Assembly: GCF_000021325.1 (NCBI RefSeq)
Contig: NC_011365.1
Coordinates: 2,136,001 to 2,200,000, forward strand
DNA: 64,000 bases
Reading direction: 5' to 3'
Source of the DNA: Gluconacetobacter diazotrophicus PA1 5
GTDB taxonomy: Bacteria > Pseudomonadota > Alphaproteobacteria > Acetobacterales > Acetobacteraceae
Shown here piece after piece: positions 2,345 to 18,223 of this stretch (positions are counted from its first letter, which is position 1; each line of letters starts with the position of its first letter). The notes under the pieces are model-generated. The model ran no database searches and was not told the DNA's origin. It was given only the letters and a program-made list of their open reading frames with translations. The translations under genes were made by a program, and so were the position numbers.

Positions 2345-2799
2345 CGCCTGCCCGTCATCGTGGTTTCAGCCATGGTCGTTCGATCCCGTTCACTCACGGG
2401 AATATCCCGTACTTTCATCGAGGATGACAGGACCACGCGCCAAGGTCCGGTACGCCGTCACCGGATTTCGGGACCCACCTCTAAACATGAAATAAGAAGA
2501 AAGAAATCCTGGAGAGGGAGATAGGGCCTGTGGATGGCGGGGTACCCACGTTTCCAAAAACGTACCCCGTCTTTCCCACAGGGTGTACAGTTTCTATAAG
2601 CCTGATCTTCAACCGCTTATCGGAGTTATCCCGAAACTGCCGACAAGGGGCTGTGTACAACCCACCGTGTCGGCGTCCGGGGATGTTGTCCACGGTACTC
2701 GGTACGCTCAAGAAGTGTCTGGAGTACTATCCCCATGTACCCCAGTACTCGTTCGGGCCGGACACAGGGTTTCATTTTTCGAGTACGGAGAGCCAGCGC
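2345..2799. other. Divergent hemE/maf intergenic region; candidate origin-like or regulatory locus
   Basis: No gene is seen in these 455 bp. An A-rich stretch (2485-2510) is followed by several 7/9 matches to the DnaA box TTATCCACA: TGTGGATGG 2529-2537, TTTCCCACA 2572-2580, TTATCCCGA 2626-2634, TTGTCCACG 2686-2694 and TGTGTACAA 2652-2660 (reverse). GTAC occurs 12 times here and twice more inside maf. hemE flanks the origin in Caulobacter and other Alphaproteobacteria, and parAB/rsmG/mnmG/mnmE lie 10-16 kb away. Against an origin here, most genes to the right point towards it rather than away. Promoters for hemE and maf must also lie in this region. Confidence 0.35.
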
Positions 2800-2863
2800 A
2801 TGAGCGACTCGTCATTAGTACTACCGGGCGGACCTCTACAGGCCGAGTCGCCCCTGATAGTAC
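2409..2863. repeat. Cluster of 14 GTAC palindromes
   Basis: GTAC starts at 2409, 2450, 2542, 2562, 2585, 2655, 2695, 2702, 2724, 2737, 2745, 2783, 2818 and 2860. Four are AGTACT (near 2723, 2744, 2817, 2859). GGGGTAC (2539-2545) and GTACCCC (2562-2568) form an inverted repeat. One or two would be expected by chance in this length. The last two lie inside maf codons. Confidence 0.75.
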
Positions 2864-3438
2864 TGGCCAGCCAGTCCGCCACGCGCCGTATCCTGTTGGA
2901 ACAGGCGGGATTATGCGTCGAATGCCGCCCCGCCCGCGTGGATGAGGACGGGGTCCGGGAATCGGCCCGGGCGGCGGGCCTGTCGCCCGATTCCTGCGCC
3001 CTGCTGCTAGCCGAACTGAAGGGCGGGCGCATTCGCGATCCCGGCTGCGTGGTGATCGGGGCCGACCAGATCCTGTCCTGCGAGGGCGAATGGTTCGAAA
3101 AGCCGGCCGACCGCCAGGCCGCGCGGGCGCAGTTATGGCGGCTGCGCGGACGGATGCACGTGCTGCACAGCGCGGTCGTGGTCATGCGCGACGGGCAGGT
3201 GATCTGGCGCCACGTCGCGCGGCCCGAACTGACGATGCGCCCGTTTTCCGAAGCGTTCCTGGACGCGTATCTCGACATCGAGGGCGACGCGATCCTGTCC
3301 TCGGTCGGAGCCTATCGGTTGGAAGGATGCGGGGTTCACCTGTTCGACGGCATCGTGGGTGAGCACGCCGCCATTCTTGGCCTGCCTCTGCTGCCGCTGC
3401 TGGGGTTCCTGCGCCAGCATGGTGTTGTCCTTTCCTGA
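2800..3438 (+). CDS. maf: Maf/YhdE-like nucleotide pyrophosphatase
   Basis: Predicted cytosolic nucleoside-triphosphate pyrophosphatase of 212 aa that hydrolyses non-canonical or modified NTPs. It has the Maf signature LASQSATRR (residues 22-30; family LASxSPRR), the ARVDEDGVRE block, and VVIGADQIL with the catalytic Asp. In many Alphaproteobacteria a Maf gene lies near hemE, as here. The ATG at 2800 begins just before the conserved core; upstream frame continues without family similarity. The first 25 codons include TTA, GTA, CTA, CTA, ATA and GTA. These are unusual in this GC-rich genome, and two of the clusters spell AGTACT palindromes (see findings). Confidence 0.88.
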   Translation: MSDSSLVLPGGPLQAESPLIVLASQSATRRILLEQAGLCVECRPARVDEDGVRESARAAGLSPDSCALLLAELKGGRIRDPGCVVIGADQILSCEGEWFEKPADRQAARAQLWRLRGRMHVLHSAVVVMRDGQVIWRHVARPELTMRPFSEAFLDAYLDIEGDAILSSVGAYRLEGCGVHLFDGIVGEHAAILGLPLLPLLGFLRQHGVVLS

Positions 3439-3558: not shown

Positions 3559-3634
3559 GGGGCCATAGCTCAGTTGGGAGAGCGCCTGAATGGCATTCAG
3601 GAGGTCGTCGGTTCGATTCCGATTGGCTCCACCA
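3559..3634 (+). tRNA. tRNA-Ala (anticodon GGC)
   Basis: A 76-nt cloverleaf. Acceptor GGGGCCA pairs with TGGCTCC with one G-T pair, discriminator is A, and CCA is encoded. The D-arm is TAGCTCAGTTGGGAGAGC, the anticodon stem CCTGA/TCAGG encloses ATGGCAT with anticodon GGC, and the T-arm carries GTTCGATTCC. It decodes GCC and GCU. Confidence 0.97.
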
Positions 3635-12469: not shown

Positions 12470-12545
<76 letters not shown>

Positions 12546-12675: not shown

Positions 12676-13566
12676 TCACCCGTTCAGCCGCGCCAGGACC
12701 GTATCGAACTGATCCAGCGAATGGTACAGGATACGGATCGACCCGCCCCGCCCGTCAAAGGCGATCTGCACCTTCAGCCCCAATCGCGCGGACAGGTCGC
12801 GTTCCAGGACCTGGATTTCCGGGTCCTTGCGTTCGGCGGCCTTGGCGGGGGCCTGCTGCTGCTGGCGGGTGGCCTTCTGGATCAGGGCCTCGGTCTGGCG
12901 GACGTTCAGCCCCTGCTCCAGCACGATTTTCAGGGCCGCGACCGGGTCGGGATGGCCCAGCAGCGCGCGGGCATGGCCCGCCGTCAGCTTGCCGTCGCGC
13001 AGTGCCGCGCGCACCGGCGGCGGCAGGTTCAGCAGCCGGACCATATTCGCGACGTGCGAGCGCGACTTGCCCAGCGCGCCGGCCAGTTCTTCCTGCGTCA
13101 GGCTGTAATCCTGCAGCAGGCGCTGCAGGCCCTCGGCTTCCTCGATCGCGTTCAGGTCGGCGCGTTGCAGGTTTTCGACCAGGGCCGCGGCCATGGCGTC
13201 CCCGTCATCCAGGGCGCGGATATGGACCGGGACCTCGTGCAGGGATGCCATCTGGGCCGCGCGCCAGCGGCGTTCGCCGGCAATGATCTGGTAGCGATCG
13301 GCGTGGTCGGGGTGCGGCCGCACGAGGATCGGCTGCAGGATGCCGCGCGTGCGGATCGAATCCGCCAGTTCCGCCAGGGCATCGGGTTCCATGACCTGGC
13401 GCGGCTGGAACGGTCCGGGTTCCAGCAGGTCGACCGGCAGCGTGCCCGCGCGGTCCTGTTCTGTGCGGCCCGAAACGCGGGCGATGGCGGTGGGCGCCTG
13501 ATCGCCCAGCAATGCCGCCAGGCCCCGGCCCAGGCGCGGACGGGCCTGATCCTTCTTCGTGCTCAT
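12676..13566 (-). CDS. parB: Chromosome-partitioning protein ParB
   Basis: A 296-aa ParB/Spo0J CTPase clamp that loads at parS and spreads along DNA to organise the origin region. The order is an N-terminal ParA-interacting segment ([13 protein letters not shown]), the CTP-binding fold with [24 protein letters not shown] (GERRxRA motif), the helix-turn-helix [40 protein letters not shown], and a C-terminal dimerisation domain. Its ATG overlaps the parA stop (ATGA). Two parS sites in this window lie 1.4 and 3.8 kb upstream of it. Confidence 0.97.
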
Positions 13567-14405
13567 GCCCGGACCGCCTTCCCTTTCGGTTTCGCCAGCT
13601 TCATGCGGGCGATCAGTTCCTTGGCCATCGCCTGATAGGCCATGGCACCGCTGGATTTCGCATCATAGGCCATGACCGAGCGGCCATGGCTCTGGGCCTC
13701 GGAAATGCGGATGTTGCGCGGGATCAGGGTGTCCATCACCTGATCGCCGAAGAAGCCGCGCGCATCGGCGGCGACCAGTTCCGACAGATTGTTGCGCCGG
13801 TCGTACATCGTCAGCACGATGCCCGCGACATGCAGGTCGGAATTGAAGGCGCGGCGCACGCGGTCGATCGTGCGCACCAGTTGGCTGATCCCTTCCAGCG
13901 CGAAGAATTCGCACTGCAGGGGCACGACGACCCCGTCCGACGCCACCAGCGCGTTCAGCGTCAGCAGGCCGAGGCTGGGCGGGCAGTCGATCAGGATCAC
14001 GTCGTACCCGCTGCCCACGCGGGCTATGGCATCGCGCAGGCGGAATTCGCGCCGGTCCTGCATGACCAGTTCCAGTTCCGCGCCGGCCAGTTCGGTATCG
14101 GCGGCGATGATCGCCAGGTTCGGGATTTCGGTGGCCTGGACCAGGTCGGCGGCTGCGGCGTCGTCCATCAGCAGGGCATAGGTGCCCAGGCGACGCGCGT
14201 CGTAGCCGACGCCCAGGCCGGTCGAGGCATTGCCCTGCGGGTCGAGGTCGATCAGCAGGACGGAAAGACCCTGCGCCGCCAGGCCGGCGGCGAGGTTGAT
14301 GGCCGTGGTCGTCTTGCCGACGCCGCCCTTCTGGTTGGCCAGGGCAAGAATGCGAGGCACGCGCGCGGCGTCAGCGACCCGGCGCGCGTTCTGAGTGTCT
14401 GACAC
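13563..14405 (-). CDS. parA: Chromosome-partitioning ATPase ParA
   Basis: A 280-aa deviant-Walker ATPase that moves ParB-parS complexes to segregate the origin. The deviant Walker [15 protein letters not shown] includes the signature Lys, Walker A' is [13 protein letters not shown] and Walker B is [11 protein letters not shown]. Start is one of two GTG codons (14417 or 14405). I prefer 14405 (SDTQNARRV...), and either overlaps the end of rsmG. Coupled to parB by an ATGA overlap. Confidence 0.96.
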
Positions 14406-15003
14406 GCCTGATATCACCCAGTCTGAGAATGGTGCCGTCCGCGTTGGTGCGGCTTGGCAATCGGGATACCGCCATGTGCCAGTCGGCGGCGGCAGCGGTC
14501 AACTCATCCTCGACATTTCGGCCCTTCAGGAACAGACAAAATCCATCCGGGGCCAGGAAATGGCTGCTCCATTCCAGCAATTGAGGCAGGGCGGCCAGGG
14601 CGCGGGCGGTGACGACCTGCACGGGCGGTATGTCCGCGTCCTCGATCCGGCGGGCGATGATGGTGACGCGTGCGCCCACCGCGCGCGCGGCCTCGCGCAG
14701 GAAGGCGGCCTTGCGCTGGTCGGATTCGATCAGGGTCACGTCCGCGTCGGTGGCCATCGCGATGATCAGCCCGGGAAAGCCCCCGCCCGACCCCATGTCG
14801 GCCAGCCGCACGCCGGGCGGGATCAGCGACGCCAGTTGCAGGCAGTCCGCGATATGCCGGTCCCACAGATGTGCCAGGTCCCGGGGCGAGACCAGGTTGA
14901 TGCGGCTGTTCCAGCGGGTCAGGATTTCGGCGAACCGGTCCAGCTTCGCCCGCAGCGCATCCGGCACGCCATTGCCCCCCTGTGGTTTCACGTGAAACAT
15001 CAT
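14371..15003 (-). CDS. rsmG: 16S rRNA (guanine527-N7)-methyltransferase
   Basis: A 210-aa SAM-dependent methyltransferase (formerly GidB) that methylates N7 of G527 in 16S rRNA; loss gives low-level streptomycin resistance in other bacteria. The SAM-binding glycine motif is [13 protein letters not shown], followed by [17 protein letters not shown] and the [15 protein letters not shown] motif. Its ATG overlaps the mnmG stop (ATGA) and its 3' end overlaps parA by about 35 bp. Codons 2-7 (MFHVKP) are formed by a parS site, so the N-terminal peptide sequence is partly dictated by the centromere element. Confidence 0.95.
14984..14999. promoter_or_regulatory. parS: parS centromere-like site 1
   Basis: GGTTTCACGTGAAACA matches the conserved bacterial parS TGTTTCACGTGAAACA at 15 of 16 positions, with the palindromic core TTTCACGTGAAA complete. 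It overlaps the first codons of rsmG, 1.4 kb upstream of parB. Confidence 0.9.
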
Positions 15004-16915: not shown

Positions 16916-18223
16916 TCACTTCCCGATACAGAACTGCCCGAACACCGTATCGAGCAGATCCTCCACCCCTACCGCCCCGGTCAGGCGCCCCAGGGCGCGC
17001 ATGGCCAGGCGCATTTCCTCGCCCCGCATCTCTGGCCAGTGCATATCCAACGCGGCGGCCAGATGGCCAGCGGTTTCTTCGATCGCCGCCCGATGGCGGG
17101 CCCGCGTCAGCGGCGGGCCGGCCGCTGACGCGGTCAGCGCCCGGGCGCGTTCGGCCAGCGCCGTGCGCAGCGCGTCCATGCCCGTGCCCTGCCGGACGCT
17201 GATCCCGATCGCATCCGCCCCGGCGGGCACCGGTGCCAGGTCGACCTTGTTCCGCACCCTGATCGCATCCGCCGGAATATCGTCGGGCACCGTCTCGCCG
17301 TCGAACATCGCGATCACGCAGTCGGCATGTTTCACGTGAAACAGGGCCCGCCTTACGCCCTCGGCCTCGATTTCGTCCTGTGTCTCGCGCAGGCCGGCGG
17401 TGTCGATCAGGGTCACGGGCACATCGCCCAGCACCACGCGGATTTCGATGGCATCGCGCGTGGTCCCCGCAATGGCCGAAACAATGGCCGCGTCCCGCCC
17501 GGCCAGCGCGTTCAGCAGGCTGGACTTGCCGACATTGGGCGCCCCGACAATGGTGAAGACCAGCCCCCTGCGCAGCTTCTCGCCCCGGCCGCCATCGTCC
17601 AGGTGGGCCTGCATCTCGGACCGCAGCGCCGTCAGGTCATCCAGCAGCGCCTGTTCCACACCGGGCGGCAGGTCCTCGTCCGGGAAGTCGATCAGTGCCT
17701 CCTGATGTGCCAGCAGGGTCCGCAGCCGGGCCGCCCAGCCGTCATAGATCCGGCTCAGCGTCCCGTCCGCCTGGTCCAGGGCCTGCCGCCGCTGCGCTTC
17801 GGTCTCGGCATCGATCAGGTCGGCGATGCCCTCGGCCTCGATCAGGTCCAGTCGGCCATGGGCGAAGGCACGGCGGGTGAATTCGCCCGGCTCCGCCGGC
17901 CGTGCGCCCAGTGCCACCAGCGCGTCGGCCACGCCCGCGATCACCGCCGGGCCGGCATGCAGGTGCAGCTCCGCGCTGTCCTCGCCGGTATAGCTGCGCG
18001 GACCGGGGAACCACAGCACCAGCGCCCGGTCCAGCAGCACCGGCGCCGCCGCCGCGTCACGCCGCCACAGGCCACGCAGGGATGCCTGGCGCGGCGGCGG
18101 CAGCGGGCCGCACAGCCGTTGCAGCATGTCGCCGCATCCCGCCCCGGTCAGGCGCATGACGGCGATGGCCGCGCGTCCCGCCCCGGTCGCCAGCGCGAAG
18201 ATCGGCATCTGTTCGGTCGGCAT
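16916..18223 (-). CDS. mnmE: tRNA modification GTPase MnmE
   Basis: A 435-aa GTPase partner of MnmG for U34 modification. The order is an N-terminal folate-binding domain ([20 protein letters not shown]), a helical domain, and a G domain with G1 [13 protein letters not shown]2 GTTRD, G3 DTAGLRET and G4 NKVD. It ends in FCIGK, with the catalytic Cys motif C(I/L)GK. Start ATG 18223 ([10 protein letters not shown]) gives the normal length; ATG 18208 is an alternative. Just after the G3 region a FHVKH stretch is encoded by a perfect parS site, so this loop sequence may reflect DNA rather than protein constraint. Confidence 0.95.
17328..17343. promoter_or_regulatory. parS: parS centromere site 2 (perfect consensus)
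   Basis: TGTTTCACGTGAAACA is a 16/16 match to the conserved parS. It lies inside the mnmE coding region, 3.8 kb from parB and 2.3 kb from site 1. Confidence 0.95.

Follow-up and report, generated by a model that had tools for sequence, protein, structure and literature searches.

A conserved array of GTAC palindromes marks the predicted chromosomal origin of acetic acid bacteria and accompanies an orphan M.RsaI-like methyltransferase

The gap between hemE and maf in Gluconacetobacter diazotrophicus carries a dense array of GTAC palindromes that recurs in most of its named relatives and which, with the support of GC skew, we read as marking the chromosomal origin of replication (oriC) of acetic acid bacteria. 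On the account that we favour, and consider reasonably probable, the array would be the functional core of oriC, its GTACs the target of a conserved orphan methyltransferase resembling M.RsaI, and their hemimethylated state a modulator of initiation.

Results

Fourteen GTACs lie between positions 2409 and 2863 of the 64-kb stretch of DNA analysed here in full (hereafter the window), at 2409, 2450, 2542, 2562, 2585, 2655, 2695, 2702, 2724, 2737, 2745, 2783, 2818 and 2860; as a palindromic feature, the array is given no strand. This packing had been claimed in an earlier note on the same DNA, and it stands: 2000 dinucleotide shuffles of 2401-2870 gave a mean of 2.91 GTACs (sd 1.45) and a maximum of 8, 0.65 would be predicted from the remainder of the window, and none of the other palindromic tetramers at 2401-2870 is in comparable excess (GATC, for instance, occurs once against the 14 GTACs). 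The four AGTACTs reported alongside are equally real, being the only ones in the 64 kb and all falling within the array. Nor does the genome show an equal density elsewhere: GTAC triplets with gaps of at most 30 are rare outside the array region, with 18 in the whole 3.9 Mb, of which five lie in the first 3 kb of the window and four of those five in the array itself. At two other places (L163, 1457-2578; L164, 2120-2172), a short upstream stretch with three GTACs is common to a mobile-element-like methyltransferase gene and a duplicated toxin-antitoxin-like pair; we judged these triplets to be unrelated to the array.

The gap (2345-2799, without strand) is bounded on the left by hemE, encoding URO-D on the minus strand (1283-2344; Pfam PF01208), and on the right by maf on the plus strand (2800-3438; PF02545). 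We assign it to the chromosomal origin region on the grounds of its GC content (0.55, against 0.68 for the window), the array in the gap of relatives, GC skew, and the DnaA boxes of one relative, G066. Two of the GTACs fall inside maf (2818-2863, plus strand), where they are spelled by codons 6-8 (TTA GTA CTA) and 20-22 (ATA GTA CTG), and are retained in 62 and 34 of 94 origin sequences, respectively. The proposal that this rare-codon spelling was due to the GTACs holds in part. The codons are indeed scarce, with TTA at 0.5, CTA at 0.6, ATA at 0.9 and GTA at 2.0 per 1000 in 19 ORFs of the window, but maf has four further rare codons of the same set away from the GTACs (codons 13, 38, 70 and 112), and therefore GTAC alone does not explain its rare codons. 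Of the four TTA codons and the five CTA codons in those 19 ORFs, maf accounts for three each, several of them not at GTACs. GANTC, the CcrM site, occurs at 2806 and 2845 of the window, and in loci L005-L077 it reaches 6.09 per kb upstream of hemE against 1.45 on the hemE side. The origin-proximal region also holds genes for tRNA-Ala(GGC) and tRNA-Lys(CTT), at 3559-3634 and 12470-12545.

When the hemE-maf gap of related Acetobacteraceae was checked for GTAC, as the earlier note had proposed, enrichment was found in 75 of 80 named relatives: over the 750 bp upstream of hemE these have 6-16 GTACs, where the remainder of each locus would predict 0.2-1.7, at gap GC contents that span 34-69%. The array is absent upstream of hemE in the other five (L078-L081 and L084), namely three Bombella, Parasaccharibacter apium and 'Acetobacteraceae bacterium B3987'. 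Across ten Gluconacetobacter, the window included, all 14 sites align. For a wider comparison of origins, 114 sequences were tried, of which 103 had a strict core, defined as GGGTACCC-N14-GTACCC, and 94 were distinct; the 11 without the core were dropped. A core of nine GTACs with fixed spacing (2542-2748 in the window, without strand; offsets 0, 20, 43, 113, 153, 160, 182, 195 and 203) runs through these sequences, each site being retained in 82-94 of the 94, the first two by construction since the sequences were picked by the core. Further GTACs are lineage-specific, for example at -17, 95, 137/138, 143, 215, 238, 266, 296 and 318. When 1036 sites were pooled without dereplication, their flanks showed little sequence preference apart from a shortage of C next to GTAC; GTNAC, which we take to be an EbfC-like site, is not enriched at the array loci and was set aside. 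The mix of fixed and lineage-specific sites, the weak flanks and the lack of GTNAC enrichment together point to selection on the tetramer. That selection acts on the DNA, as had been suspected from the window alone, is further supported by the conservation of the array in relatives and by its separation from hemE in two genomes, G118 and G032.

The strict core occurs in 91 of 397 Acetobacteraceae genomes, in one copy each, where a reversed control matches 24. In the class, it was found in three of 385 genomes, two of these again Acetobacteraceae, and 26 hemE loci outside the family have at most four GTACs in any 500 bp. Among 40 further Acetobacteraceae, the 800 bp upstream of hemE hold 0-3 GTACs in 36 cases, eight in L213 and L232, five in L226 and six in L241. 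Many array-less Acetobacteraceae in this set (L206-L245) have a single GTAC after the first DnaA box (CTGTGGAT..GGGGTACC), about 60-155 bp from hemE, and this is likely to be the ancestral site. No paper among the literature matches listed describes a GTAC array at the origin of acetic acid bacteria.

The two relocated arrays lie 25 kb (G118) and 26 kb (G032) from hemE with their spacing intact. Cumulative GC-skew minima were located within stretches of 80-150 kb (140 kb for G118, in 2-kb steps) in five genomes, and coincide with the array in two of them. For G118 the local minimum (888.0 kb) falls by the array (887.2 kb) and away from hemE (912 kb), an arrangement which argues that oriC goes with the array; the corresponding positions in G070 are 902 kb for the minimum and 902.9 kb for the array. 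The minimum is off the array by 14 kb in G136, by 30 kb in G025 and by about 60 kb in G. diazotrophicus, in whose genome the skew is weak. The position of dnaA in both G. diazotrophicus and G025 is toward the point where the skew turns from positive to negative. Two perfect matches to what we presume to be the parS motif (14985-14998 and 17329-17342, plus strand) are found close to parB (12676-13566) and to a gene for a ParA-type ATPase (13563-14417), at 12-15 kb from the array.

Within the gap, a conserved AT- and purine-rich block picked out by alignment (2479-2506, plus strand; 75% AT) is a candidate unwinding element. Six DnaA-box-like sequences accompany it, each with two mismatches, and no box in the gap is better than this. 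Five of the six touch or adjoin a GTAC: CCATCCACA (2529-2537, minus strand) adjoins the one at 2542 and TTTCCCACA (2572-2580, plus) that at 2585, TTGTACACA (2652-2660, minus) has the GTAC at 2655 inside it, TTGTCCACG (2686-2694, plus) abuts 2695, and CTATCCCCA (2727-2735, plus) overlaps 2724, with the sixth, TTATCCCGA (2626-2634, plus), lying 20 bp from its nearest GTAC. Over the 94 origin sequences, boxes with at most two mismatches number 5.7 per 470 bp, against 1.1 in mononucleotide shuffles. The dnaA gene itself is distant from the array, and the dnaA promoters of 27 genomes have 0-1 GTAC each in the stretch available, some with little upstream sequence. The DnaA recognition helix reads NRDHTT in 25 of 27 sequences, from array-positive and array-negative genomes alike (G029 and G116 have ERDHTT), and it takes this standard form in the array genomes that were aligned, which speaks against an altered DnaA specificity. 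Genome papers on A. pasteurianus 386B and A. cerevisiae KSO5 put oriC close to dnaA, the one on KSO5 choosing the GC-skew maximum (PMC3751514, PMC13209655); strains of both species have the array at hemE, with 15 GTACs in A. pasteurianus LMG 1262 (L041) and 12 in A. cerevisiae LMG 1625 (L053).

Nature has also provided losses. G066 and G029 group together (98/93) within the array clade when HemE is placed on a tree of 76 rows. Between hemE and maf, G066 (L136) shows no GTAC and 14 perfect copies of the DnaA box TTATCCACA over some 270 bp, and G029 one GTAC and two perfect boxes; among the 73 genomes surveyed, perfect boxes occur in 1 of 33 with the array versus 14 of 40 others. The association with an origin that the earlier note had entertained is thus strengthened on four counts, namely conservation, the displacement in G118 and G032, the skew minimum in two of five genomes, and the replacement of the array by DnaA boxes in G066. 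A further genome inside the array clade, G101 (L110), is sister to G118 and G032 and has the methyltransferase described below; its hemE locus shows scattered GTACs only and no array.

Which enzyme could write on these sites? The candidate is an orphan N4/N6 DNA methyltransferase (PF01555), encoded in G. diazotrophicus at C1:315906-316718. Besides a CcrM-like gene, at least one full-length PF01555 methyltransferase of about 280 aa was found in each of 15 genomes searched, 14 of which have the array or core shown, the other, G126, being congeneric with the array-bearing G046. Orthologues (E at most 1e-30) are present in 171 of 397 family genomes, including all 91 with the strict core, and are matched in neither G066 nor G029. 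In a survey of 73 genomes, in which at least five GTACs in 500 bp counted as an array, the gene was present in 33 of 33 genomes with the array and 12 of 40 without, G101 being one of these 12. In 11 of the 12 orthologue loci examined (the exception being L297), an MltA-like gene precedes it, often with overlapping start and stop; the pair has a Tim44-like gene before it and sometimes an Smr gene behind, these neighbours having been identified by Pfam on examples and otherwise by inspection. The enzyme has the motif TSPPYN, which we take to fit N4-cytosine or N6-adenine enzymes, and its best PDB relatives are N4-cytosine enzymes. Other candidates were set aside: a Dam-like D12 enzyme (PF02086) has no match in G. 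diazotrophicus and matches in 12 of 30 genomes searched, C5 enzymes (PF00145) occur in 7 of 15 searched, and the other PF01555 genes of G. diazotrophicus look like mobile-element paralogues. The CcrM-like gene (N6_N4_Mtase plus RAMA domain) is present in G. diazotrophicus as well.

The likely target emerges from phage relatives of the orphan enzyme. At 43-44% identity (Syn19, ACG-2014j), these lie directly behind a gene annotated 'R.RsaI endonuclease', and in Syn2 that same endonuclease-like gene is annotated 'hypothetical'; no RsaI-like endonuclease is annotated alongside the ACG-2014f relative (45%) or next to the Paracoccus plasmid relatives. The 'R.RsaI' protein, whose name is that of the phage annotation, has no Pfam or NCBIfam family that we could find. 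With a profile built from it, such an ORF was located immediately ahead of the methyltransferase gene in 22 of the 80 viral relatives (L399-L478, cyanophages among those named), that is, in 21 of the 48 with at least 40% identity and in one of the 32 below, the contigs not being dereplicated; 27 of the 48 closer relatives are without the ORF before the gene (three are without room upstream). No RsaI-like ORF lies near the orphan methyltransferase in L293-L312. In the methylome of R. blasticus 28/5, m4C at GTAC is assigned to M.RsaI, with 87.65% of motifs modified (PMC6256690). Other GTAC enzymes (H. pylori M.Hpy99XII, M.PabI and M.CviQI) are reported to make m6A, so that m4C is the likely mark rather than a proven one. 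Judged through its phage relatives, then, the orphan enzyme is probably related to M.RsaI and probably acts on GTAC, where its mark would probably be N4-methylcytosine (m4C). The literature matches listed include no GTAC methylome of acetic acid bacteria.

Corrected for descent, the enzyme and GTAC could be compared in only six pairs, of which about 2.3 agree, 1.0 opposes and 2.7 show no difference, and the enzyme and the array in only four, with 2.0 in agreement and 0 opposed; the association is not significant once descent is allowed for. Among array-less genomes, the lone GTAC next to the first DnaA box ('site 1') was found by script in 10 of 12 with the enzyme versus 5 of 28 without, for which the Fisher p of 0.00017 ignores descent and concerns a pattern chosen after viewing the data; by eye, the site is also present in G053 (enzyme-positive) and in G027 and G092 (enzyme-negative), bringing the latter group to 7 of 28. 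Genome-wide observed/expected GTAC ratios do not differ between 20 genomes with the enzyme and 20 without, sampled at 20 kb each (p 0.60), and give no sign of a GTAC depletion that methylation might have left.

Discussion

How might such an array work? We posit that the orphan methyltransferase methylates the GTACs of the origin array, which lie against or across weak DnaA boxes, probably as N4-methylcytosine, and that the departure of the forks would leave many of them hemimethylated. Hemimethylated GTACs could be read by DnaA directly or by another protein, and may modulate DnaA binding and re-initiation, either delaying or licensing the loading of DnaA. No reader protein of the array was found. 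In a more ambitious version, to which we lend a shade less than even credence, this would be an independent methylation-timed origin, in which the M.RsaI-like enzyme writes m4C, the array has replaced strong DnaA boxes and hemimethylation gates re-initiation, the lineage of G066 and G029 having dismantled the system and G066 having reverted to consensus boxes.

The earlier note took the GTACs for a binding array of an unknown regulator or origin-associated protein. The link to the origin survives; as for binding, the weak flanks and the co-occurring M.RsaI-like methyltransferase make methylation sites the likelier first reading, and a reader protein may act in addition to methylation. Could GTAC instead be the bare site of a sequence-specific origin-binding protein, playing the part that CtrA has at the Caulobacter Cori, with methylation not involved and the enzyme a marker of the clade? 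Nine sites at fixed spacing would suit such a protein, as would the single GTAC beside the first DnaA box in five of 28 enzyme-less genomes and the divided outcome of the six descent-corrected pairs (2.3 with, 1.0 against, 2.7 without difference). We nonetheless consider this rather improbable: a protein site would not usually have flanks so weak beyond 4 bp, the tetramer seems sufficient by itself, judging by the lineage-specific GTACs at new positions, and the closer viral relatives of the enzyme are often paired with RsaI-like endonucleases.

It is more doubtful still, and in our view quite unlikely, that the GTACs are parts of diverged DnaA boxes read by the DnaA of this clade. A GTAC does touch or adjoin five of the six DnaA-like boxes, one of which has it inside; on the other hand, contact or adjacency with such a box is seen for only five of the 14 GTACs, the NRDHTT helix is common to array-positive and array-negative genomes (25 of 27 sequences), and G066, nested in the clade, has consensus boxes. 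Control of hemE or maf transcription, with the proximity to the origin being incidental, would fit an array that lies between two divergent genes and extends into maf, yet is very hard to reconcile with the arrays of G118 and G032, found 25-26 kb from hemE with spacing intact and, in G118, at the skew minimum. A chance or compositional artefact, for which the AT-richer gap might be invoked, is already refuted by the shuffles (0 of 2000 above 8) and by conservation in 75 of 80 relatives at 34-69% gap GC.

Methylation at GTAC, the reading that we prefer, invites comparison with E. coli, where oriC has a GATC array, methylated by Dam and subject to sequestration by SeqA. Methylation-timed initiation is known mainly from this system in the gammaproteobacteria, to which SeqA is, to our knowledge, confined. 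In common with it, the GTAC system has a 4-bp palindrome densely repeated at oriC, beside or over weak DnaA boxes, and a conserved orphan methyltransferase. Different are the motif and the enzyme, M.RsaI-like and of PF01555 with TSPPYN (probably making m4C), where Dam is of the D12 class; we found no reader, and observed the GTAC system only in Acetobacteraceae. As both motif and enzyme class differ, it falls outside the GATC/Dam/SeqA family.

The Caulobacter Cori also lies at hemE and has CtrA and DnaA sites, binding of CtrA repressing initiation (PMC1914354). Both origins interleave multiple regulatory sites with DnaA boxes on the hemE side; the array origins have GTAC, and none of the 94 contains the CtrA site TTAA-N7-TTAA. 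The CcrM/GANTC system likewise relies on an orphan PF01555 methyltransferase, and a CcrM-like gene is present here with GANTC enriched in the gap, but enzyme, motif and probably base are different, and GTAC forms one dense array at the origin. With RsaI restriction-modification (PMC6256690), finally, the system has in common the GTAC target and, judged via phage relatives, the same apparent methyltransferase subfamily; unlike it, the Acetobacteraceae enzyme is without an adjacent RsaI-like ORF in the loci examined, and is a conserved operon gene.

For the industrially used acetic acid bacteria, our results place the origin at hemE/maf, unlike the near-dnaA placement in two genome papers, and since the array has moved or been lost in some natural lineages, the idea lends itself to direct tests. 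If true, it would give N4-methylcytosine a role in the cell cycle. It would also add a second, independent methylation-timed origin, with another motif, another enzyme family and probably another base, and the strategy of timing initiation by methylation would then be a convergent one.
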